Position numbers and translations under genes: made by a program
In this document: positions 28,903 to 44,130 of the stretch, piece after piece
Numbering within the stretch: the stretch's first letter is position 1
How the letters are laid out: each line of letters starts with the position of its first letter
Assembly: GCA_949130485.1 (NCBI GenBank)
Contig: OX422199.1
Span: forward strand, 4,326,402-4,390,401
Reading direction: 5' to 3'
DNA: 64,000 nucleotides
Source: Agelas oroides
Lineage: Eukaryota > Porifera > Demospongiae > Agelasida > Agelasidae
The notes under the pieces: model-generated
Database searches by the model: none
What the model was told of the DNA's origin: nothing
The model's input: only the letters and a program-made list of their open reading frames with translations

Positions 28903-31900
28903 AGCACTCCTCGGAGGTTAAAACGGCGTTATCAGGACTTTCCCGCACATAAACAGGCTTGCACCAATTTCACAGGGCATCCACAGTGGTGAAAACTGCT
29001 TTCTCGACCTTCTCTGCCGCTTAAACAGGCCTGCACATGCTTCAGAGAACCTACTCGGATGTTAAATCGGCGTTATCAGGTCTTTCCCGCATATAAGCAG
29101 GCTTCCACCAACCTCACAGGGCCTCCAAACCAATGACAACTGCTTTCTCGATCGTCTCTGGCACTTAAAACAGGCCTACACATGGTTCATAGCACGCCCT
29201 AAGAGGTTAAAACTGCTTTATCCTGATTTCCCGAACATAAACTGGCTCGCACCAACCTCACATGGTCTACACAGCGGTGAACACTGCTTTCTTGATCTTC
29301 TCTGGCACATGAACAGGCCTGCACGTGCTTCAAAGTACCTCCTTGCAGGTTAAAACGGCGTTATCAGGCCTTTCCCGCCTATAAACAGGCTTCCACCAAC
29401 AACACAGGGCCTCCACAGCGGTGCAAACTGCTTTCTCGATCTTCTCTGCCACTTAAACAGGCCTCCACGCGCTTCACAGTACCTACTCGGAGGTTAAAAT
29501 GGCGTTATCAGGCCTTTCCCGCACATAAACAGGCTTGCACCAACCTCACAGGGCCTCCACAACGGTGAAAACTGCTTTCCCGATCCTCCCTGGCACTTAA
29601 ACAAGCATACACGTGATTCACAGCACTTCCTCGGCGGTTAAAACGGCGCTATCAGGTCTTTCCCGCACATAAACAGGCTTCCACCAACCACACAGGGCCT
29701 CCACAGCTGTGTAAACTGCTTTCTCGATCTTCTCTGCCAGTTAAACAGGCCTCCACGTGCTTCACAGTACCTACTCGGAGGTTAAAACGGCGTTATCAGG
29801 CATTTCCCCCACATAAACAGGCTTGCACCAACCTCACAGGGCCTCCAAAGCGGTGAAAACTGCTTTCTCGATCCTGTCTGGCATTTAAACAAGCCTAGAC
29901 GTGATCCACAGCACTTCTTCGGAGGTTAAAACGGCGTTATCAGGCCGTGTCTTTCCCGCACATAAACAGGCTTACACCTACAACACAGGGCCTCCACAGC
30001 GGTGAAAATTGCTTTCTCGATCTTCTCTGCGACTGAAACAGGCCTGCACGTGCTTCACAGAACCTACACGGAGGATAAAACGGCGTTATCAGGTGTTTCC
30101 CGCACATAAACAGGCTTGCACCAACCTCACAGGGCCTCCACAACGGTGAAAACTGCTTTCTCGATCCTCCCTGGCACTGAAACAAGCCGACACGTGCTTC
30201 ACAGCACTTCTTCGGAGGTTAAAACGACGTTATCAGGTCTTTCCTGCATATAAACGTGCTTGTACCGTTCTCACATGGCCTCCACAGCGGTGAAAACTGC
30301 TTTCTTGATCTTCTCTGGCACTTAAACAGGCCTGTACGTGCTTCACAGTACCTCCACAGAGGTTAAAACGGCGTTATCTGGACTTTTCCGCACATAAACA
30401 GCATTGCACCAACCTCACAGGGCTTCCACAGTGGTGAAAACTGCTTTATCGATCTTCCCTGCCACTTAAACAGGACTACACATGGTTCAAAGCACGCCCT
30501 AGGAGGTTAAAACGGCGTTATCAGGTCTTTCCAGCACATAAACAGGCTTGCACAAACGCCTCACAGGGTCTCCACAGCGGTGAAAACTGCTTTCTCGATC
30601 TTTTCTGCAACTTCAACAGGCCTGCACGTGTTTCACAGTACCTACTCGGAGATTAAAACAGCGTTATCAGGAATTTCCCGCATAAAAACAGGCTTGCACC
30701 AATCTCACAGGGCCTCCATAGCGGTGAAAACTGCTTTCTCGATCCTCCCTGGCACTTAAGCAAGCCTTACACGTGCTTCACAGTACCTACTCGTACGTTA
30801 AAACGGAGTTATCAGGTCTTTCCCGCATATTAACAGGCTTGAACCAACCTCACAGGGCCTCCACAGCGGTGAAAACTGCTTTCTTGATCTTCTCTGGCAC
30901 CTGAACTGGCCTGCACGTGCTTCACAGTACCTCCTTGGAGGTTAAAACGGCGTTATCAGGTCTTTCGAACACATAAACAAGCTTGCACTAAGCTCACACG
31001 GCTAGCACAACGGTGAAAACTGCTTCCTCGATCATCTCTGGCACTTAAACAGGCCTCCACGTACCTCCCAGCATCTCCTAGGAGGTTAAAACGGGGTTAT
31101 CAGGTCTTTCCCGCACATAAAGAGGCTTCCACCAACCACACAGGGCCTCCACAGCGGTGCAAACTGCTTTCTCGATCTTCTCTGCCACTTAACCAGGCCT
31201 CCACGTGCTTCACAGTACCTTCTCGGAGGTTAAAACGGCGTTACCAGGCCTTTCCCGCCTATAAACAGGCTTGCACCAACATCACAGGGCCTCCAAAGCG
31301 GTGAAAACTGCTTTCTCGATCTTCCCTGGCACTTAAACAAGTATACACGTGATTCACAGCACTTCCTCGGAGGTTAAAACGGCGTTAACAGGTTTTTCCC
31401 GCACATAAACCGGCTTCCACCAACCACACAGGGCCTCCACAGCTGTGCAAACTGCTTTCTCGATCTTCTCTGCCACTTAACCAGGCCTCCACGTGCTTTA
31501 CAGTACCTACTCGGAGGTTAAAACGGCGTTATCAGGCCTTTCCCGCCTATAAATAGGCCTCCACCAACAACACAGGGCCTCCACAGCGGTGAAACTGCTT
31601 TCTCGTTCTCCTCTGCCACTTAAACAGGCTTCCACCTGCTGCACTGCACCAACTCGGAGCTTAAAACGGCGTTATCAGGCTTTTCCCGCACATAAACAGG
31701 CTTGCACCAACCTCACAGGGCCTCCAAAGCGGTGAAAACTGCTTTCTCGATCGTGTCTGGCATTTAAACAGGCCTAGACGTGATCCACAGCACTTCTTCG
31801 GAGGTTAAAACGGCGTTATCAGGTCTTTCCCGCGCATAAACAGGCATACACCTACCACCCTGGCAGGGTCTCCGAAGCGGTGAAAACGGCTTGGTCGATC

Positions 31901-34521
31901 TTCACTGCCACTTAAACAGGCCTGCACGTGCTTCACAGAACCTACACGGATGTTAAAACGGCATTATCAGGCCTTTCCCGCACATAAACAGACTTGCACC
32001 AACCTCACAGGGCTTCTACAGTGGTGAAAACTGCTTTATCGATCTTCCCTGGCACTTAAACAGGCCTACACATGGTTCAAAGCACGCCCTAGGAGGTTAA
32101 AACGGCGTTATCAGGTCTTTCCAGCACATAAACAGGCTTGCACAAACGCCTCACAGGGCCTCCACTGTGGTGAAAACTGCTTTCTCGATCATCTCTGCAA
32201 CTTAAACAGGCCTGCACGTGTTTCACAGTACCTACTCGGAGATTAAAACGACGTTATCAGGAATTTCCCGCATAAAAACAGGCTTGCACCAATCTCACAG
32301 GGCCTCCAGAGCGGTGAAAACTGCTTTCTCGATCCTCCCTGGCACTTCAACAAGCCTTACACGTGCTTCACAGCACTTCCTCGCAGGTCAAAACGGCGCT
32401 ATCAGGTCTTTCCCGCACATAAACAGGCTTCCACCAACCACACAGGGCCTCCACAATGGTGAAAACTATTTTCTCGCTCTTCTTTGCCACCTGAACAGGC
32501 CTGCACGTGCTTCACAGTACCTCCTTGGAGGTTTAAACGGCGTTATCAGGTCTTTCGCGCATATAAACAAGCTTGCACTAAGCTCAAACGGCCAGCACAC
32601 CGGTGAAAACTGCTTTCTCGATCATGTCTGGCACTTAAACAGGCCTCCACGTGCTTCCCAGTACCGCCTAGGAGGTTAAAACGGCGTTATCAGGTCATTC
32701 CCGCACATAAACAAGCTTCCACCTCCAACACAGGGCTTCCACAGCGGTGAAAACAGCTTTCTCGATCTTCTCTGCGACTTAAACAGGCCTGCACGTACTT
32801 CAGAGTACCTACTAGGAGGTTAAAACGGCGTTATCAGCATATAAACAGGCTTGCACCAACCCCACAGGGCCTCCACAGCTGTGCAAACTGCTTTCTCGAT
32901 CATCTTTGCCACTTAAACAGGCATCCACGTGCTTCACAGCTCCTCCTCGGAGGTTAAAACGGCGTTATCAGGTCTTTCCCGCACATAAACAGGCTACCAC
33001 CACATACACAGGGCGTCCACAGTTGTGAGAACTGCTCTATCGATCATCTCTGGCATATAACAGGCCTCCACGTGCTTCACAGCACCTCCTCGGAGGTTAA
33101 AACGGCATTATCAGATCATTCCCGCACATAAAATGGCTTGCACCAACCTCACAGGGCCTCGACAGCGATGAAAATTGCTTTTTCGATCGTTCCTGGCACT
33201 TAAACAGGCCTACACGAACTTCACAGCACCTCCTCGGAGGTTAAAACTGCATTATCTGGATTTGCCGCATGTAAACAGGCTTCCACCAACCACACACGGC
33301 CTCCACAGCGGTGAAAACTGCTTTATCGATCATCTCTGCCACTTAAAAAGGCCTGCACGTCTTTCACAGTACCTCCTCGGAGGCTAAAACGGCGTTATCA
33401 GGTCTTTCCCGCACATAAACAGGCTTCCACCAACCTCACAGGGCCTCCACAACGGTGAAAACTGCTTTCTCGCTCTTCTTTGCCACCTGAACAGGCCTGC
33501 ACGTGCTTCACAGTACCTCCTTGGAGGTTAAAACGGCGTTATCAGGTATTTCGCGCAAATAAACACGCTTGCACTAAGCTCAAACGGCCAGCACACGGGT
33601 GAAAACTGCTTTCTCGATCATCTCTGGCACTTAAACAGCCCTCCACGTGCTTCCCAGCACCTCCTAGGAGGTTAAAACGGCGTTATCAGGCTTTCCCCGC
33701 CTATAAACAGGCTTCCACCAACAACACAGGGCCTCTACAGCGGTACAAACTGCTTTCTCGATCCTCTCTGCCACTTAAACAGGCCTCCACGTGCTGCACA
33801 CTACCTACTCGGAGGTTAAAACGGCGTTATCAGGTCTTTCCCGCACATAAACAGGCTTGCACCAACCTCACAGGGGCTCGATAGCGGTGAAAACTTCTTT
33901 TTCAATCTTCCCTGGCACTTAAACAAGCCTTACAAGTGCTTCATAGCACAACCTCGCAGGTTAAAACGGCGCTATCAGGTCTTTCCCGTACATAAACAGG
34001 CTTCCACCAACCACACAGGGCCTCCATACCTGTGCAAACTGCTTTCTCGATATTCTCTGCCACTGAAACAGGCCTCCACGTGCTTCACAGTACCTACTCG
34101 GAGGATAAAACGGCGTTATCAAGTGTTTCCCACACATAAACAAGCTCCCACCACTCACACAGGGCCTCGAGAGGGATGAAAACTGCTTTATCGATCATCT
34201 CTGGCATATAACTGGCCTCCACGTGCTTCACAGCACCTCCTCGGAGGTTAAAACGGCGTCATCAGATCTTTCCCGCACGTAAACAGGCTTGCACCAACCT
34301 CACAGGGCCTCGACAGCGGTGAAAAGTGCTTTCTCGATCTCCACTGGCACTTAAAGAGGCCTGCACAAGCTTCACAGCACCTCCTCGGAGGTTAAAACTG
34401 CATTATCTGGATTTCCCGCATATAAACAGGCTCCCACCACCCACACAGGACCTCCAGAGCGGTGAAAACTGCTTTATCGATCATCTCTGGCATATAACAG
34501 GCTTCCACGTGCTTCACAGCA

Positions 34522-34530
34522 CCTCCTCGG
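34522..34530. repeat. Left target site duplication of the MULE
   Basis: CCTCCTCGG directly precedes the element and is repeated perfectly at 39040-39048. Nine bases is the usual duplication length for the Mutator superfamily. Confidence 0.85.
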
Positions 34531-34620
34531 GCGAATTTTTTTTTTGGGCGTACTTTCGACTTAGACTTTGGCAATGTTACTATGTGCGCATGCATGCACT
34601 AAGGGGTGCGGTCTGGATTA
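34531..34620 (+). repeat. Left terminal inverted repeat of the MULE
   Basis: It starts GCGAATTTT, runs through a T tract and TACTTTCGACTTAGACTTTG, and matches the reverse complement of 38956-39039 with a few indels and substitutions. Similarity fades after about 90 bases, where both arms have GC-rich GCGCATGC-type sequence. Confidence 0.85.
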
Positions 34621-34776
34621 TACTCACATGCCGCTTGGTTGGTTTCGCGGGAAAAGTGAGCGTTGAGTGACGTCTGACCTAGCTAGCTTGGAGGAAGGTA
34701 CGCCACATTGGGCTGCCAAAATGATGTAGCCACGTAATACTGATGCAGCTATAATTACATTCAACAACTTTCAGCG
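34621..34776 (+). promoter_or_regulatory. 5' leader of the MULE gene with an E2F-like site
   Basis: About 155 bases separate the inverted repeat from the proposed start codon. TTTCGCGGGAAAA at 34643-34655 fits the E2F consensus on the reverse strand, and TGACGTC lies shortly downstream (about 34667). No clear TATA box is seen. The promoter role is inferred from position. Confidence 0.35.
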
Positions 34777-36181
34777 ATGAGTGAGCAACAGCCAATTATA
34801 ATAACTGATGGCAATGACAATGAGCTGATTGCAGAGCTTTCCACTGAGCTGAATAGTGATGACCTCAGGAGGTTAGCTGGTAAAGAATGGCTGACTGACA
34901 AGGTAAATCAATTCCAGTGTTAAAGTGCACAATGGTTGTTTTGCAAGAGTATCAGCAGTGCCAGTATGTATACTCTTCTTGACCCACAGATCATGATAAA
35001 ATATCTTCATCTTCTCCAATCTGAAGCAGAGAGAGTAAGAATGAAAAGTTGGCTAGAAAAGCTTTACATACTTACAACATAGATTACTTTGTTAACAATT
35101 GGCTTGCAGCTGACACAAAGAAAGACCACCATTCTGAACAGTTTCTTCACAGAGAAATTGCTTTCTACTGGTTATGATGGTGTCCTACGATACTACAGAA
35201 AGGTATGTGGAATATCGGTTGATTACGTGCTTAGTACCTGAATACATACATATTTCAACACAGGAAAAGTTGCTTGAATCTGATGGAATACTGGTACTCT
35301 TCAATGATAAGCGAAACCACTGGACATTCATGGTACAGTACATGTACCTCAAGCTCATGGAGATGAATATTAATGAACTACATCTCCAATTGACAGTGGG
35401 CTGATCTGGCGGCAAAGGAAATGATATACTATGATTCATTCAAGCCACTATGTTCTCCCTACTTTTGCACAATTCGGTATGTAATCGTACATAAATATAA
35501 TACTTGTACTGCTACAGATAGATACTGTTGTTCTATTATTAACAGAAACTATCTTGAGAGAAGAGCACAAACAGAGGAAAAGATTATCAGCTGGCATGAC
35601 TGGAAATTCCATATGGCAACGGTTAGTAAGGCATCTGAGGGCGATATTTTCTGCAGTAGGTGGTACTGCTGTATATTTGTATTGTTATCCACTATAGGAC
35701 ATACCTTGCCAACTAAATGGGTACGACTGTGGCATCTTTAGTCTTGAGGTACCTATACATATGTACACTCAGTCAACTGGTTATTAGAATACTCATACAA
35801 GATTCAGTGTTGTGGTCGCTTTACAGTTATGTTAGTATAAGACCTTGTAAATACATTTGTAGTTGTGGTCTAATAAGTGGAATAATAATTCAATTTTGGC
35901 CTGATCTGTTAGTCTTTTGAATTGAAAAAAAAAAAGCTCAAAGATCTTGATATGCAACTGGAGTTCACTTGCAAGCAAAGCAGTGCATGACAAGTTTTGT
36001 CCTCTACACAGTTTACAAGACATTTGCTACTGGGTCTCCCAATGGGATTTGAGCAGGTAAGCATTTGTGAGCAATGTATGGGTACTAAACACACGTTACG
36101 CACACCCGTCTCCATATGCAGTGTGATACAGCACAGACTCGAAGTTGGATTCTTCACGAATTGACTGAGAAGAAGCTGCTT
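34777..36181 (+). CDS. Ulp1/SENP-like (C48) cysteine protease domain, exons 1-8 plus start of exon 9
   Basis: Exons by GT-AG boundaries: 34777-34902, 34990-35034, 35110-35202, 35264-35332, 35397-35476, 35546-35621, 35698-35748, 36012-36056, then exon 9 from 36122. The frame stays open throughout, with one phase-2 junction (exon 5 to 6) and the rest phase 0. Introns are 61-87 bases except one of 263. The protein (195 residues before exon 9) starts MSEQQPI and has the Ulp1 hallmarks in order: KEWLTDK, NSFFTEKLLSTGYDGV, the catalytic His in NHW (35318-35320), the Asp in IYYDSF (35433-35435), the Gln in CQLNG (35710-35712) and the Cys in YDCGIF (35728-35730). The spacings are 17 (H-D), 50 (D-C) and 6 (Q-C); yeast Ulp1 has 17, 49 and 6. 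The final helix, RSWILHELTEKKLL, is encoded in exon 9. Such enzymes cleave SUMO or related modifiers; the substrate here is unknown. Splice sites are predictions; the exon 4 donor (GTACAG) is the weakest. Confidence 0.82.
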
Positions 36182-38206
36182 ACAAATGACAACACATCAA
36201 GTAGCTCATTTACTCAGAAGCCATCAACAAATGCATCTGAGGCAAAGTCCAACAGTTATCTGAGCTCAGACAGTGACTTTGAAGACAAGTCAGCAGTCAG
36301 CCGAAAGAGAAAGAAGCAGATTAGTAACTCCTCAAAGTTTGAAAGTGATGGCAATAGTAGTGATGCACATGTTTGTAATTGTGATCGTACAAATATCTCA
36401 AGTGGGTTCACTTCCCCCAAGTCCCTCAATTGGGAACAACTTCCTGCTGATATTCAGTCTGTACTACCACGTGATGAAGAATATTCATACGTTATCCAAT
36501 CATACCAGGACCAGGAAACTAGATCATTTGAAGGTGCTCCGGAATTTGCTTTTAGTGCAGTAATTCGAATCAATCTTGAAAGCAATGAAGCAATTGACAA
36601 CTGGTTAAAGAAAATGATGGAAACAAGCTTGTGCACTTACAGAGTGTCCAGAGGAGGGCATAAACCACTTGGCAAACGCTTACTTTGTAAACATGAGATG
36701 CACTGTCAACACTCGAGAAAGGCTCTTACACCTAAACAGATACAGAAATCTGCTGCTGCAAAAGCGAAAAAACTGAGAAAACCTCTATGTACTTTAGTGA
36801 GAGACAAGAAAACACAATGTCCATCTACTCTCACTTTATCATTGCAAGTTCCTACAAAGAAACAGAAAAGAGCAGCTGAACAACATCCTTACCTGTTGAG
36901 CCACAGAGCTGTATTAAAGCTGGATTTCATCCACAACCATCCTATTCATGCTGCTCATCCTCTCAGCTTTCGCCCTATCAGTGAAAACACAAAGCAGCAA
37001 TTCTTTGAGTATTTTGACAAAGGCCATTGTGCCTCATCTGCGAGGCACACACATGAACAAATGCTCATTCTCAACTCAGAAACAGATGCTCACAAACAAA
37101 CAGTGCTAGCAGATCGTGCAACTAATCCAAACATACAAGACATATGTCGTTTGTTCATTCAATGGAGAAAGAGAAACTACGGGGAAGAAGATGGAAAACA
37201 AATGTTTGAAAGGCTACAGGATGAAGTAGACAAGTACAATGAAAAGCATGCAAGTATGGGTGGAAAAGCACTGCTGCAGTGGTATGAGGCAGATGATGAC
37301 AAAGATATGGACAGTGAAAGGGAATGCATTCCAAAGAAAAAGAAGAAAAGAGAGATATCAAATAAACCACTAATATTGGTTCTTTTGACCCCACTCATGG
37401 CACGTGCTCATGAAGAAATTCAACAAGCTAGTGAAATTGTGTTCTGTGACTCAACAGCATCTCTTGACAGATTTAACACATCTATATTCATTTTGTCCAC
37501 TGCCAGTACTGCATCTGGTGTACCTCTAGCAATAATACTAACATCAGATGAACGAGAGCACACTATTCAAAGAGCATTTGAGATGGTTAAGGAAACTTTA
37601 CCACCCTGGGCATTTTTTGGCAATGGACCGAATACTGGTCCAGAGGTATTCATGATAGATGACAGCTCTTCTGAACGAACAGCTATTAACAAGGCATGGC
37701 CATCAGCTGTAGTTCTCCTCTGCACTTTCCACTTCCTTCAAAGAAGGTGGACATGGCTGCAAGATGGTCAAAATAAAGTGGAAAAAAATGATCGTCTGAT
37801 TCTTATTGAAAAACTGAAGAACATGGTATATGCAAACAGCGAGAGCGCTCTTGAATCTCATTACCATAAACTACTTCAAACATGTCCACAAGCTACCAGA
37901 TACCCTCATTTTTTACAACATCTACAGTCTGTCTGGGAAAAGAGACATACATGGGCACACTGTTATCGAAGCACTCTGCCAGTACGAGGAAATCATACAA
38001 ATAATTATGCTGAAGCTGGGATCCGAATACTTAAAGAACTGATATTCTCACGGGTGAAATGTAGTTGTCCAGTATGGAGAATATGGGCTCAACTTCATTA
38101 CCAGCATGTCATCTTCAGCAAGACAAAAGCTCGCACGAATTGCGCTTGGAGATGGTGCCATCAAGGACCCAGGCTTTTATTCTTCAATCCATCAAGAATC
38201 CCTTGA
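36116..38206 (+). CDS. MULE transposase (exon 9, fused to the Ulp1 domain)
   Basis: The uninterrupted frame is 696 codons counted from an ATG at 36116. The likely exon starts at 36122 after TGCAG, because TGT GAT there continues the Ulp1 fold in frame. Residue numbers are from 36116. Residues 1-22 are the last Ulp1 helix, and 23-100 form a Ser/Asn-rich linker. A zinc-binding region resembling WRKY/GCM1 fingers of MULEs uses C191, C197, C235 and the HNH at 273-275. A basic KKKKKR (407-412) may be a nuclear signal. The DDE-type core has D445 in IVFCDST, D515/D516 in MIDDSSSE, the CTFH motif at 536-539, and E633 in NHTNNYAEAGIRILKE. The enzyme should bind the inverted repeats and catalyse cut-and-paste transposition in the nucleus. 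After about residue 648 (38059) the frame no longer looks like the family, and the sense continues in another frame. No SWIM zinc finger is visible. Confidence 0.85.
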   Translation: MQCDTAQTRSWILHELTEKKLLTNDNTSSSSFTQKPSTNASEAKSNSYLSSDSDFEDKSAVSRKRKKQISNSSKFESDGNSSDAHVCNCDRTNISSGFTSPKSLNWEQLPADIQSVLPRDEEYSYVIQSYQDQETRSFEGAPEFAFSAVIRINLESNEAIDNWLKKMMETSLCTYRVSRGGHKPLGKRLLCKHEMHCQHSRKALTPKQIQKSAAAKAKKLRKPLCTLVRDKKTQCPSTLTLSLQVPTKKQKRAAEQHPYLLSHRAVLKLDFIHNHPIHAAHPLSFRPISENTKQQFFEYFDKGHCASSARHTHEQMLILNSETDAHKQTVLADRATNPNIQDICRLFIQWRKRNYGEEDGKQMFERLQDEVDKYNEKHASMGGKALLQWYEADDDKDMDSERECIPKKKKKREISNKPLILVLLTPLMARAHEEIQQASEIVFCDSTASLDRFNTSIFILSTASTASGVPLAIILTSDEREHTIQRAFEMVKETLPPWAFFGNGPNTGPEVFMIDDSSSERTAINKAWPSAVVLLCTFHFLQRRWTWLQDGQNKVEKNDRLILIEKLKNMVYANSESALESHYHKLLQTCPQATRYPHFLQHLQSVWEKRHTWAHCYRSTLPVRGNHTNNYAEAGIRILKELIFSRVKCSCPVWRIWAQLHYQHVIFSKTKARTNCAWRWCHQGPRLLFFNPSRIP

Positions 38207-38729
38207 GCATAAATACGGGGGTAAAGGGAAAGACCAGATAAAACCATCATCACTTGACACAATGGACTTCAGCAGTACCCACTGGGATTTGATTCGGGTA
38301 GGTGCTTATGAGGACAATGAAGAGCCAGCTACTGACAAAATCTCCCCAAACGTAGAAGAGACATGTAAAATGATTGATTCTGTAGCAGAGGATTTAAAAA
38401 GAAGGCTAAGAGAGCACCCACTTGATGAACAGTTATTTTCAGGTACAAACAAATTCATTCATCGATACAACCGCTACTCATCCTGCAAATCAAATGCAAT
38501 GCTAGCTTCTGCTCTTCACAAATTTGGATGGGTTTTTGGAGGATCTGTTATGTCACAAAAGTTTGGAAGACTGCGTCATAGAAAATGAATCACTTTTCAA
38601 GCTACAGCTGCTGGCAGACGCAGAAAAGGAGTGAAAAAAGGGAAAGCTCCAGTTGTATCTGGAAGGCCAGCTGGATCTCAGTCTGTCCAACTCCCGATCG
38701 CACGAGCGATCGTTTGTTTCACAGACACA
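38058..38729 (+). pseudogene. C-terminal continuation of the transposase, frameshifted and with an in-frame stop
   Basis: From AAT at 38058 a different frame reads NVVVQYGEYGLNFITSM and continues open to TGA at 38586-38588, ending KFGRLRHRK. This suits the region that follows the catalytic Glu in related transposases, so the shift between GTGAAA and TGTAGTT is probably a small indel in this copy. Beyond the TGA the same frame continues with ITFQATAAGRRRKG, a basic tail, to a good donor (GTAAGT) at 38730. The TGA therefore looks like a nonsense mutation, or a replaced codon, and a further short exon may exist. An unrecognised intron at the shift point is the main alternative. Confidence 0.6.
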
Positions 38730-38955
38730 GTAAGTACCTTGCATGTACACATATAAAATAGCGAGACAGTATATAGAGTAGATGGTCTCAGGGTATGAGT
38801 TTACCATTTACCAGCATTTTGCTGACCTTTAGCGATGTTAGCACTAAGATTATGAAGACGTTTACCCTTAGGTTCATTACGAACGTGCACCGAGTATTTG
38901 TTAGTAATGTCAAGGTTCATATTCCATCTGCGGCCGCCGCGCCTGTGGCGAATAA
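38730..38955 (+). other. 3' non-coding region of the MULE
   Basis: This stretch has no recognised coding content. It begins with a consensus splice donor and may hide a small last exon, but I could not choose an acceptor with confidence. It ends in GC-rich sequence (CGGCCGCCGCG) next to the right inverted repeat. An AATAAA at 39028-39033 lies inside the repeat and may be chance. Confidence 0.4.
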
Positions 38956-39039
38956 CGTTCGGACCACAACCCCTGGCGCATGCGCATACAGTGGCCATTG
39001 CAAAGTCTAAGTCGAAAGTAGCCCAAAAATAAAATTCGC
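38956..39039 (-). repeat. Right terminal inverted repeat of the MULE
   Basis: Read on the minus strand it starts GCGAATTTT and contains TACTTTCGACTTAGACTTTG, identical to the left arm over that stretch. The T tract is interrupted by one A. Confidence 0.85.
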
Positions 39040-39048
39040 CCTCCTCGG
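39040..39048. repeat. Right target site duplication of the MULE
   Basis: CCTCCTCGG, identical to 34522-34530. The following AGGTTAAAACGG resumes the satellite unit in register. Confidence 0.85.
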
Positions 39049-40103
39049 AGGTTAAAACGGCGTTATCACATCTTTCCCGCACATAAACAGGCTTGCACCA
39101 ACCTCACAGGGCCTCGACAGCGGTGAAAAGTGCTTTCTCAATCTTCTCTGCCACTTAAACAGGCCTCCACGTGCTTCACAGTACCTACTCGGAGGTTAAA
39201 ACGGCGTTATCAGGCCTTTCCGGCTTATAAACAGGCTTACACCAACCTCACAGTGCCTCCAAAGCGGTGAAAACTGCTTTCTCGATCCTCCCTGGCACTT
39301 AAACAAGTATACACGTGATTCACAGCACCTCCTCGGAGGTTAAAACGGCGTTATCAGGTCTTTCCCGCACATAAACAGGCTTCCACCAACCACACAGGGC
39401 CTACACAGCTGTGCAACTGCTTTCTCGATCATCTCTGCCACTTAAACAGGCATCCACGTGCTTCACAGTTCCTTCTCGGAGGTTAAAACGGCGTCATCAG
39501 GTCTTTCCCGCACATAAAGAGGCTACCACCACATACACAGTGCGTCCAGAGTGGTGAGAACTGCTCTATCGATCATCTCTGGCATATAACAGGCCTCCAC
39601 GTGCTCCACAGCACCTCCTCGGAGGTTAAAACGGCGTTATCAGATCACTCCCGCACATAAAATGGCTTGCACCAACCTCACAGGGCCTCGACAGCGATGA
39701 AAATTGCTTTTTCGATCGTTCCTGGCACTTAAACAGGCCTACACAAACTTCACAGCACCTCCTCGGAGGTTAAAACTGCATTATCTGGATTTGCCGCATG
39801 TAAACAGGCTTCCACCAACAACACACGGCCTCCACAGCGGTGAAAACTGCTTTATCGATCATCTCTGCCACTTAAAAAGGCCTGCACGTCTTTCACAGTA
39901 CCTCCTCGGAGGTTAAAACGGCGTTATCTGGATTTCCCGCACGTAAATAGGCTTGCACCAGCCTCACAGGACCTCCAAAGTGGTGAAAACTGCCTTCTCG
40001 ATCGTCCCTGGCACTTAAACAGACCTACACGTGCTTCACAGGCCCTCCACAGCGGTGAAAACTGCCTTCTCCATCTTCCCTGGCACTTAAACAGGCCTAC
40101 ACG

Positions 40104-40176
40104 GAAGTATGACCATGTAAGAACAGCCTCTGGCTGAATGACCATTAAAGTTTCACTTCACTTCACTTTACTTCAC
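40104..40176 (+). repeat. Junction module 10
   Basis: Counterpart of module 2, with GGCTGAATGACC and one TTTAC variant. Confidence 0.75.
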
Positions 40177-40528
40177 AGCACTTCCTCGGAGGTTAAAACG
40201 GTGTGGTCAGGTCTTTCCCGCACATAAACACGGTTACACGAGCTTCACAGGACCACCACGGTGGAGAAAACTGCTTTCTCGATATTCCCTGGCACTTCAA
40301 CAGGACTACACGTGCTTCACACTATTTCCTAGGAGGTTAAAACTGCTTTCACAGGATTTTCAGCACATAAACACGCCTGCACTAAGCTCACAGGGCCTCT
40401 ACAGCGGTGAAAACTGCCTTCTCCATCTACCCTGGCACTTAAACAGGCCTACACGTGCTTCACAGGGCCTCCACAGCGGTGAAAACAGCCTTCTCCATCT
40501 TCATTGGCACTTAAACAGGCCTACACGT

Positions 40529-40600
40529 AAGTATGACCACGTAAGAACAGCCTCTGGCTGAATGGCCATTAAAGTTTCACTTCACTTCACTTTACTTCAC
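40529..40600 (+). repeat. Junction module 11
   Basis: Counterpart of module 3. Thirty bases later a second bare pentamer run begins. Confidence 0.75.
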
Positions 40601-40630
40601 AGCACTTCCTCGGAAGTTAAAACGGTGTTG

Positions 40631-40650
40631 TTCACTTCACTTCACTTCAC
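40631..40650 (+). repeat. Isolated (TTCAC)4 run
   Basis: A pentamer run without the rest of the module follows GAAGTTAAAACGGTGTTG. About 0.5 kb present at 22.7-23.15 kb is missing here, so this looks like a deletion between two modules by recombination in the pentamer runs. Confidence 0.65.
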
Positions 40651-41266
40651 AGCACTCCTCGGAGGTAAAAACGGCGTTATCAGGTCTTTCCCGCACATAA
40701 ACAGGCTTGCACCAACCTCACACGGCCACTACAGCGGTGAAAACTGCTTTCTCGACCATCTCTGGCACTTAAACAGGCCTGCACATGCTCACAGTACACA
40801 CTCGGAGGTTAAAACGGCGTTATCAGGTCATTCCCGCACATAAACAGGCTTGCACCAAACTCACAGGGCTTCCACTGTGGTGAAAACTGCTTTCTCGACC
40901 TTCTCTGCCACTTAAACAAGCCTGCATGTGCTTCAGAGTACCTACTCGGAGGTTAAAACGGCGTTATCTGGTCTTTCCCGCATATGTGGGCCTCCACACC
41001 AATGACAACTGCTTTCTCGATCGTCTCTGACACTTAAAACAGGCCTACACATGGTTCATAGCATGCCCTCGGAGGTTAAAACTGCTTTATCCGGACTTCC
41101 CGAACATAAACTGGCTTGCACCAACCTCACACGGCCTACACAGCGGTGAACACTGCTTTCTCGATCATCTCTGGCACTTAAACAGGCCTACACGTGCTTC
41201 ACAGGGCCTCCACAGCGGTGAAACTGCCTTCTCCATCTTCCCTGGCACTTAAACAGGCCTACACGT

Positions 41267-41333
41267 CAGTATGACCATATAAGAACAGCCTCTGGCTGAA
41301 TGGCCATTAAAGTTTCACTTCACTTCACTTCAC
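41267..41333 (+). repeat. Junction module 12
   Basis: Copy starting CAGTATGACCATATAAG, with two changes against its counterpart at 23793. Confidence 0.75.
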
Positions 41334-41832
41334 AGCACTTCCTCGGAGGTTAAAACGGCGTTATCAGATCTTTCCGGCCCGCACATAAATAGGCTTGCAC
41401 GTGCTTCACAGGACCACCACAGTGGAGAAAACTGCTTTCTCGATATTCCCTGGCACTTCAACAGGACTACACGTGCTTCACACTATCTCCTCGGAGGTTA
41501 AAACTGCTTTCACAGGATTTCCAGCACACAAACATGCTTGCACTAAGCTCACACGGCCACTACAGCGGAGAAAACTGCTTTCTCGACCATCTGTGGCACT
41601 TAAACAGGCCAGCACCTGCTTCACAGTACACCCTCGGAGGTTAAAACGGCGTTATCAGGTCTTTCCCGCACATAAACAGGCTGCACAAACCTCACAGGGC
41701 CTCCACAGCGGTGAAACCTGCCTTCTCCATCTTCCCTGGCACTTAAACAGGCCTACACGTGCTTCACAGGGCATCCACAGCGGTGAAAACTGCCTTCTCC
41801 ATCTTCCCTGGCACTTAAACAGGCCTACACGT

Positions 41833-41894
41833 AAGTACGACCACGTAAGAACAGCCTCTGGCTGAATGGTCATTAAACTTTCACTTCACTTCAC
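41833..41894 (+). repeat. Junction module 13
   Basis: Copy with AAGTACGACC and ATTAAACTTTCAC and a short pentamer run. It aligns with module 6 on its left and module 7 on its right, so it is probably a recombinant between the two. Confidence 0.7.
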
Positions 41895-43153
41895 AGCACT
41901 TAATCGGAGGTTAAAACGGCGTTATCAGGTCTTTTCCGCCCGCACACAAAAAGGCTTGCACGAGCTTCACAGGACCACCACAGTGGAGAAAACTGCTTTC
42001 TCGATATTCCCTGGCACTTCAACAGGACTACACGTGCTTCACACTATCTCCTCGGAGGTTAAAACTGCTTTCACAGGATTTCCAGCACATAAACATGCTT
42101 GCACTAAGCTCACACGGCCACTACAGCGGAGAAAACTGCTTTCTCAACCATCTCTGGCACTTCACAGTGGTGAAAACCGCTTTCTCGACCTTCTATGCCA
42201 CTTAAACAGGCCTGCATGTGCTTCAGAGTACCTACTCGGAGGTTAAAACGGCGTTATCAGGTCTTTCCCGCATATAAGCAGGCTTCCATCAACATCACTG
42301 GGCCTCCACACCAATGACAACTGCTTTCTCTATCGTGTCTGGCACTTAAACAGGCCTACTCATGGTTCATAGCACGCTCTCGGAAGTTAAAACTGCTTTT
42401 ATCAGGATTTCCCGAACATAAACAGGCTTGAACCAACCTCACACGACCAGCACCGCGGTGAACAGTGCTTTCTCGACCATCTCCGGTACTTAAACAGGCC
42501 TGCACGTGCTTCACAGCACTTCCTAGGAGGTTAAAACGGCGTTATCAGGTCATTCCCGCATATAAACAGGCTTCCACCAACCACACACTGCCTCCACAGC
42601 GGTGAAAACTGCTTTCTCGATCATCTCTGCCACTTAAAAAGGCCTGCACGTCTTTCACAGTACCTACTCAGAGGATAAAACGGCGTTATCAAGTGATTCC
42701 CGCACATAAACAGGCTCCCACCACTCACACAGGGCCTCGAGAGGGGTGAAAACTGCTTTATCGATCATCTCTGGCATATAACTGGCCTCCACGTGCTTCA
42801 CAGCACCTCCTCGGAGGTTAAAACGGCGTCATCAGATCTTTCCCGCACATAAACAGGCTTGCACCAACCTCACAGGGTCTCGACAGCTGTGAAAACTGCT
42901 TTTTCGATCTTCCCTGGCACTTTAACAGGCCTACACAAGCTTCACAACACCTCATCGGAGGTTAGAACTGCATTATGTGGATTTCCCGCCCATAAATAGG
43001 CTTGCACCAGCCTCACAGGACCTCCAAAGTGGTGAAAACTGCCTTCTCGATCGTCCCTGGCACTTAAACAGACCTACACGTGCTTCTCAGGGCCTCCACA
43101 GCGGTGAAAACTGCCTTCTCCATCTTCCCTGGCACTTAAACAGGCCTACACGT

Positions 43154-43225
43154 AAGTATGACCATGTAAGAACAGCCTCCGGCTGAATGGCCATGAAAGT
43201 TTCACTTCACTTCACTTCACTTCAC
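43154..43225 (+). repeat. Junction module 14
   Basis: Copy with CCTCCGGCTG and CCATGAAAG changes and four TTCAC pentamers before AGCAC. Confidence 0.75.
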
Positions 43226-43852
43226 AGCACTTCCTTGGAGGTTAAAACGGCGTTATCAGGTCTTTCCCATCCGCACATAAACAAGCTTGCGCGAGCTTCA
43301 CAGGACCACCACAGTGGAGAAAACTGCTTTCTCGATATTCCCTGGCACTTCAACAGGACTACACGTGCTTCACACTATCTCCTCGGAGTTTAAAACTGCT
43401 TTCACAGGATTTCCAGCACACAAACATGCTTGCACTAAGCTCACACGGCCACTACAGAGGAGAAAACTGCTTTCTCGACCATCTCTGGCACTTAAACAGG
43501 CCTGCACATGCTTCACAGTACACACTCGGAGGTTAAAACGGCGTTATCAGGTCTTTCCCACACATAAACAGGCTTGCACCAACCTCACACGGCCACTACA
43601 GCGGCCATCTCTGGCACTTAAACTGGCCTGCACAATGCTTCACAGTACACACTGGGAGGTTAAAACGGCGTTATCAGGTCTTTCCCGCACATAAAGAGGC
43701 TGCACAAACCTCACAGGGCCTCCATAGCGGTGAAACCTGCCTTCTCCATCTTCCCTGGCACTTAAACAGGCCTACACGTGCTTCAAAAGGGCCTCCACAG
43801 CGGTGAAAACTGCCTTCTCCATCTTCCCTGGCACTTAAATAGGCCTACACGT

Positions 43853-43919
43853 AAGTAGGACCACGTATGAACAGCCTCTGGCTGAATGGACATTAAAGTT
43901 TCACTTCACTTCACTTCAC
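43853..43919 (+). repeat. Junction module 15
   Basis: Copy with AAGTAGGACCACGTATG. Confidence 0.75.
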
Positions 43920-44130
43920 AGCACTTCCTCGGAGGATAAAACGGCGTTATCAGGTCTTTCCCGCACATAAACAGGCTTGCACCAACCTCACACGGCCACT
44001 ACAGCGGTGAAAACTGCTTTCTCGACCATCTCTGGCACTTAAACAGGCCTGCACATGCTTCACAGTACACACTCGGAGGTTAAAACGGCGTTATCAGGTC
44101 ATTCCCGCACATAAACAGGCTTGCACCAAC

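Follow-up and report, generated by a model that had tools for sequence, protein, structure and literature searches.

A SENP-type protease domain in frame with the transposase of a Mutator-like element in the sponge Agelas oroides

The DNA studied here (the window) is a stretch of 64,000 nucleotides of the sponge Agelas oroides (assembly GCA_949130485.1, contig OX422199.1, positions 4,326,402 to 4,390,401 of the forward strand). At window positions 34531-39039 it carries a Mutator-like element (MULE) with terminal inverted repeats (TIRs), inserted in a diverged 144-bp satellite array. The gene model of this element encodes a complete SENP/Ulp1 protease domain (family C48) followed, in frame, by a MULE transposase. 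Nine exons are joined across eight introns, all of them GT-AG and with agreeing phases, into one reading frame, exons 1-8 occupying 34777-36056. The features of the locus, in window coordinates, are as follows.

34522..34530, no strand: left target-site duplication (TSD) CCTCCTCGG, identical to 39040-39048
34531..34632, plus strand: left TIR, about 60-100 bp with small indels; the same ends are found in L027, L030, L032 and L037
34777..34902, plus strand: exon 1, with the start, the N-terminus and the first conserved Ulp1 block (WLTDK); all eight best copies have a match to it 5' of the transposase
34990..35034, plus strand: exon 2 (Ulp1), from the spliced frame and copy comparison
35110..35202, plus strand: exon 3 (Ulp1), from the spliced frame and copy comparison
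35264..35332, plus strand: exon 4 (Ulp1), with His107 at 35318-35320 by arithmetic from the exon coordinates
35397..35476, plus strand: exon 5 (Ulp1), with Asp124 at 35433-35435, from the spliced frame
35546..35621, plus strand: exon 6 (Ulp1), from the spliced frame and copy comparison
35698..35748, plus strand: exon 7 (Ulp1), with Gln168 at 35710-35712 and the presumed nucleophile Cys174 at 35728-35730
36012..36056, plus strand: exon 8 (Ulp1); both flanking introns lie at equal positions in host genes L057 and L056
36122..38206, plus strand: exon 9, with the last SENP helix (36122-36181), a linker and the MULE transposase in one frame of 694 open codons
37493..37741, plus strand: MULE domain (Pfam PF10551) inside exon 9, converted from the protein match
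38058..38060, plus strand: breakpoint of a deletion of about 290 bp relative to other copies (gap of 283-291 bp in other loci)
38060..38588, plus strand: C-terminal part of the transposase continued in another frame, ending at a stop
38686..38910, minus strand: segment inverted relative to other copies, holding the conserved transposase C-terminus (...GQQNAGKW); minus-strand open reading frame (ORF) at 38801-39103
38978..39039, minus strand: right TIR, from inverted-repeat comparison
39040..39048, no strand: right TSD CCTCCTCGG, a perfect 9-bp copy of the left one

A preliminary description of this DNA, made from its letters, had placed the Ulp1 hallmarks on eight short exons and the final helix of the domain in the exon and frame of the transposase, and this arrangement is borne out: the final SENP helix DTAQTRSWILHELTEKKL is encoded by exon 9, which reads on into the transposase in the same frame with no stop codon between them. 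The spliced product is 889 amino acids (aa) long, and the Pfam search that the same description had suggested as a check returns Peptidase_C48 at residues 37-195 (E 1.5e-21, 77.7 bits against a cut-off of 20.7) and MULE at residues 653-735 (E 4.4e-7, 30.7 bits against a cut-off of 27.6), i.e., both domains exceed the curated cut-offs for family membership. The nearest PDB sequences to the 215-aa protease part are human SENP3, SENP5, SENP1 and SENP2 and yeast Ulp1, with best E values of 1.4e-21 to 2e-17. The protease contains H107, D124, Q168 and C174 in the order His-Asp-Gln-Cys expected of C48, which we take to be its catalytic residues. Splice-aware alignment with the element's own spliced protein recovers the same eight introns, which is only a consistency check because the query is that very protein; with human SENP5 as query, six of the eight introns are exact, one acceptor is shifted and the fifth intron is misplaced. 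The genome has Wnt genes (8 match places, best E 1e-43), as an animal's would. The data thus support a SENP-like domain at the N-terminus of an animal MULE transposase and in frame with it, while the extent first given for it (34777..38729) has to be revised, since the element is larger (34531-39039) and the exon-9 frame stops at 38206, not at 38729.

The assignment to the Mutator/MULE class agrees with the ends of the element. The TIR arms lie at 34529-34593 and 38978-39041, the outermost 2 bases being common to TIR and TSD, and the terminal repeats recur at the ends of other copies. The 9-bp TSD CCTCCTCGG falls within the 8-11 bp range of Mutator/MULE elements (PMC6446971), and when the flanks are rejoined at CCTCCTCGG, the resulting empty site is satellite sequence with 1 mismatch in 40. 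The satellite array has a diverged 144-bp unit made of two 72-bp halves and extends around the element at 30000-34530 and 39040-44000.

The window copy is a dead derivative of the element. Its exon-9 frame halts at 38206 because about 290 bp are missing at 38058/38059. The loss causes a frameshift, and with it has gone the region to which the SWIM-type zinc finger of relatives aligns (alignment with P0001-P0010). A SWIM-type zinc finger, common although not universal in MULEs, is therefore not present in the window copy, and among ten scanned relatives the SWIM scores were at or under the cut-off, or absent. The orientation of 38686-38910 is opposite in all seven other loci that cover it (C9, C1, C14, C3, C7, C4 and C23), so that an inversion has left the conserved transposase C-terminus on the minus strand. 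The deletion, the inversion and the stops rule out an intact window copy.

A genome search with the transposase gave at least 72 places, with 64 of 172 candidates scored. In the eight best copies, the window included, the best transposase pieces are 89-100% identical. The Ulp1 exons lie upstream in order in all eight, with exon 1 on the same strand as exon 9 and 1.2-2.0 kb upstream of it. Three fragmentary loci (C18:3.82 Mb, C1:9.79 Mb and C23:2.38 Mb) stand outside the eight, and at the C18 locus protease exon 1 is about 6 kb upstream of exon 9. Splice sites are mostly kept (the exceptions are an acceptor lost in C1 and exon-end gaps in C8 and C4), in a comparison that omits exon 1 of C1, most of exon 1 of C3, exons 1-3 of C14 and exons 1-4 of C4. 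Exon lengths are likewise kept with few exceptions, and exon 7 of C4 carries an insertion of about 790 bp. When the seven other copies were compared with the window and pooled, indels per kb came to 1.9 in the Ulp1 exons, 15.0 in the introns, 8.1 in the linker and 2.1 in the transposase, and substitutions per site to 0.028, 0.046, 0.020 and 0.020, respectively. Given the common history of the copies and their decay after insertion, this contrast supports the exon status of the Ulp1 blocks more than present selection on them. Fragments of Ulp1 exons were also seen at C3:3536201-3536641, C3:3640266-3640703, C4:1462504-1462929 and C4:3775873-3776220, with no listed transposase match nearby; these are perhaps internally deleted derivatives of the element.

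The introns bear on the origin of the protease. With positions given as residue/phase on human SENP5 in a splice-aware alignment, the introns of the element lie at 22/0, 38/0, 64/0, 86/0, 113/2, 138/0, 155/0 and 170/0; the fifth (113/2) was taken from the own-protein run and from the element C11, the alignment of the window to SENP5 having misplaced it. We aligned four SENP-type genes of the host (L055, L056, L057 and L073). All six introns of L057, the best case among them, are common to the element (22/0, 64/0, 113/2, 138/0, 155/0 and 170/0), as are five of the six in L056 (64/0, 113/2, 138/0, 155/0 and 170/0), where the odd one, at 43/1, falls in a poorly aligned part. That six introns coincide in position and phase within 190 codons argues for common descent of the introns of the element and of the host SENP genes, and this comparison indicates that the protease domain was acquired as genomic DNA from a SENP-type gene with introns, probably an animal one, of which it is the catalytic end. 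The element and the host genes share the protease family; the element differs in having two more introns and, where the host genes have their SENP end, a transposase, its last SENP exon being the exon that runs into it. Among the matches listed, no transposase match was found beside L055, L056, L057 or L073. In view of these introns, compared with those of the host SENP genes, the capture was likely independent of that in the plant Ulp1 MULEs.

The same architecture is found in a related family, C11/L028, which is 52% identical in the transposase. Of the eight introns of the window element it has seven at equal position and phase, among them the intron after the HW block that is absent from the host genes, and its last SENP exon DMPEIRKRISRELKANKL likewise runs into the transposase. 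A further family, L031 (43%), gave weak Ulp1-exon matches (E 0.02 to 0.07). Between the window and C11, the proportions of nonsynonymous and synonymous change (pN/pS) were 0.356/0.909 in 113 Ulp1 codons (from part of exon 1, exons 2, 4, 7 and 8 and the helix, leaving out exons 3, 5 and 6) and 0.311/0.786 in 487 transposase codons; because synonymous sites are saturated, only the direction of these values counts. Synonymous change predominates strongly in the Ulp1 exons, which points to constraint on the protease between families. The final helix was also sought in 47 relatives against 801 control blocks, using a 17-residue profile (the 18-residue profile of a first run minus its first residue). 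It was found at the start of six relatives (P0001, P0002, P0003, P0038, P0040 and P0041), each scoring above all 801 controls. A homologue search with the protease region alone returned none of 1868 candidates at E 0.001, and no relatives in viral contigs or prokaryote genomes were confirmed among 82, 87 and 92 pattern matches. In four related MULE families (L033, L034, L036 and L038), the transposase is preceded on its N-terminal side by lengthy repetitive sequence rich in proline, with no listed protease match alongside, in exon-by-exon protein searches that may miss diverged exons. Transposase relatives also occur in arbuscular fungi, namely P0014 (Rhizophagus), which has no Pfam C48 match, and P0043 (Gigaspora).

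In a second lineage, a diverged Ulp1-fold domain and a transposase occupy one uninterrupted frame of 1233 aa, and six relatives span 97-100% of the query region. The predicted model of a relative from this lineage has a protease fold and a transposase fold in one chain, the fold matching the ISCth4 transposase. Transposase-core trees of 50 and 52 rows (without P0036 and P0037, which were short, and without P0046 and P0047; 30 rows unlabelled, and the SENP label of L031 based on weak matches) split SENP-type from second-type elements with the exception of L053. One 441-aa frame of L053 holds a second-type module (47% identical to P0026, E 4e-83) and a transposase start that is 54% identical to P0003 (E 1e-15, 46 residues). 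Its core groups with P0003, which has the SENP helix, with support of 100/95, inside the first clade (100/97). In its left terminal repeat, 44 bp are common to the window element at 91%; neither the right-hand TIR of L053 nor those of L041 and L028 could be located in the stretches examined. L053 thus appears likely to reflect one swap that put the second protease type on a first-lineage transposase; a single swap is likely rather than proven, because the tree row consists of three joined pieces from a broken copy whose right end could not be located. Two other sequences carry the second-type module with no MULE domain noted: P0046, where it is matched three times, and P0047, where it is matched once and an OTU-like region was recognised by eye only.

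We consider the following explanation probable as a whole. A MULE would have captured the catalytic end of a SENP gene as genomic DNA, introns included, so that what had been the last SENP exon now opens the transposase exon. The product would be one protein with a SENP domain, an acidic/serine linker, a DNA-binding region and a DDE transposase. Its protease would be active and would remove SUMO, or a related modifier, from proteins at transposase-bound DNA. These would be silencing factors of the host that sit on copies of the element, or else the transposase, and the removal would favour the element's expression or movement. The explanation builds on the anatomy of the gene, the introns it has in common with host SENP genes, the retained fusion and catalytic residues, and the constraint between families; the enzymatic activity, the substrate and the benefit of the protease are inferred. 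DeSUMOylation against silencing would be the leading, though tentative, reading of the function; the preliminary description had suggested the removal of modifiers from the transposase or from silencing proteins of the host. It may fit published work, in which SUMO promotes Argonaute-directed silencing in C. elegans (PMC8131101), SUMOylation regulates the Sleeping Beauty host factor HMGXB4 (PMC10138897), and, in plants, a Ulp1 domain of unknown role is part of some VANC anti-silencing genes of Vandal MULEs (PMC13317346). Similarly tentative is the broader proposal of a widespread animal MULE clade whose N-terminal SUMO/ubiquitin-like-protease module would be interchangeable and exchanged between lineages (as in L053), serving as a deSUMOylase targeted against SUMO-dependent small-RNA silencing at the element's own copies.

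Several observations weigh against this explanation or its supports. Exon 9 is broken in all eight best copies, the first stop coming after 694 codons in the window, 160 in C9, 445 in C8, 416 in C7, 47 in C1, 116 in C3, 47 in C14 and 108 in C4, and C1 and C3 have one stop each within the Ulp1 exons. Changed codons in the seven pooled copies numbered 51 nonsynonymous, 27 synonymous and 2 stops in the Ulp1 exons, and 151, 74 and 9 in the transposase; such counts among copies do not by themselves indicate selection. C11 is decayed, with an exon 3 that aligns badly and holds a stop and a poorly aligned second intron. Two host genes, both poorly aligned, have few introns in common with the element, namely three of seven in L055 (22/0, 64/0 and 138/0) and two of nine reported in the low-scoring L073 (155/0 and 170/0). 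With the 17-residue profile, 41 of the 47 relatives have no SENP helix in their first 45 residues, and with the 18-residue profile only P0001 and P0041 exceeded all 801 controls, because the predicted starts of the other four (Met at profile position 2) cut off the first residue. The fold model of the second-lineage relative is weak overall (mean pLDDT 55, pTM 0.34), and a Pfam search does not recognise the second-lineage protease. A strict SUMO-interaction pattern, which 6 of 1646 control blocks contain, is present in C11 exon 1 and absent from exon 1 of the window element, and for this absence we dropped the motif as evidence.

The stops in C1 and C14, 47 codons into exon 9, are also in line with two genes, of which one would give a protease transcript that ends near or in exon 8 or 9 and the other a transposase transcript that begins within exon 9; plant MULEs with a separate Ulp1 gene are a parallel. 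Plant KI-MULEs hold their Ulp1 gene separate and in reverse orientation, and 16 of 19 relatives have no last SENP helix at their start, although the gene predictor may not splice. We read the exon-9 stops in the copies as decay. The preliminary description had held that other copies would tell one gene from two, and the outcome is mixed: the order of the Ulp1 exons in all eight copies and the fusion in the 52% family agree with one gene, and the stops in every copy do not. Two genes are nonetheless unlikely, as the last SENP helix is in frame in the transposase exon in two families and six further ORFs, and the second lineage has its uninterrupted frame, with coverage by six relatives. A passenger capture with no role for the element, as in pack-MULEs, would suit the decay of the eight best copies, the excess of nonsynonymous over synonymous changes among them and the frequent carriage of gene fragments by MULEs. 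It is quite unlikely in view of the strong synonymous excess in the Ulp1 exons between families, the kept catalytic residues, the splice sites and exon lengths, which with few exceptions persist in the copies, and the replacement of the SENP domain by another protease in L053.

Two rivals accept the fusion and differ in the target of the protease. Instead of countering silencing, it could act where the element excises or inserts, on proteins of DNA repair or of checkpoints, as suggested for the Ulp1 and OTU domains of Ginger elements (PMC2836005); the Ulp1 domain in plant VANC anti-silencing genes (PMC13317346), with the role of that domain itself unknown, speaks for silencing instead, and since the present data fit both readings alike, we regard the repair reading as rather doubtful without being negligible. 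The N-terminal position of the protease, joined through a linker, would also allow it to cut its own polyprotein and release the transposase. Ulp1 enzymes cleave after Gly-Gly, and no GG occurs in the stretch of about 125 residues past the window protease, which excludes Gly-Gly self-cleavage in the tested linker of this one copy and makes self-cleavage very improbable.

An animal Mutator encoding Ulp1 is not in itself new. The preliminary description knew of no described animal example, and this is refuted by PMC2836005 (2010), according to which Mutator transposons from hydra, lancelet, Arabidopsis, maize, rice and melon encode Ulp1 (hydra and lancelet via Repbase reports of 2008 and 2009); a figure legend there mentions an alignment in which Ginger1 and Mutator transposases are compared in their Ulp1 and PHD domains. 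The hydra and lancelet elements, likened to ours by description only, are animal Mutators with Ulp1, and the domain of the present element is N-terminal and SENP-type. Plant relatives by content are the Kaonashi elements (KI-MULEs, with KIU, and VANC with Ulp1) and the Ulp1-MULEs of melon, rice and grapevine; the plant MULE Ulp1 is conserved in eudicots and present in VANC anti-silencing genes. KI-MULEs have a separate Ulp1 gene, reverse to mudrA, and no TIRs, while some melon, rice and grapevine elements have Ulp1 in direct orientation. In contrast, the protease of the present element is on the same strand as the transposase and in one frame with it, TIRs are present, and the introns match animal SENP genes. 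Ginger1 is likewise an animal transposase fused to a Ulp1 or OTU protease; it differs in having a Gypsy-integrase-like transposase and a C-terminal protease, where the window element has a MULE transposase and an N-terminal one.

The introns in common with host SENP genes, the shared last exon, the single-frame lineage and the exchange were undescribed in the literature found, in a survey that did not seek them by name and had most subscription papers and Repbase outside its scope, and the available main text of PMC6446971 and PMC13359780 makes no mention of protease, peptidase, ULP or C48. We therefore take the shared introns, the junction exon, the single-frame lineage and the apparent exchange to be probably new here. 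Ulp1 domains are found in unrelated transposons (plant MULEs and CACTA, some Cryptons and Ginger1; in part PMC2836005) with no accepted explanation, and here the kind of donor gene, the junction and the constraint are visible, while the single-frame relative shows protease and transposase as one protein. As SUMO belongs to animal small-RNA silencing, a transposase with a SUMO protease makes element-encoded counter-silencing directly testable.

We would also like to note a set of sequences in the same genome (L062-L066, L068, L069 and L072), found by tblastn, in which a C48 (Ulp1) domain is followed by a PHD finger beside integrase-type sequence, several of the copies being near-identical. With Pfam run for L062 and L068, these look like Ginger1 elements or relatives of them.

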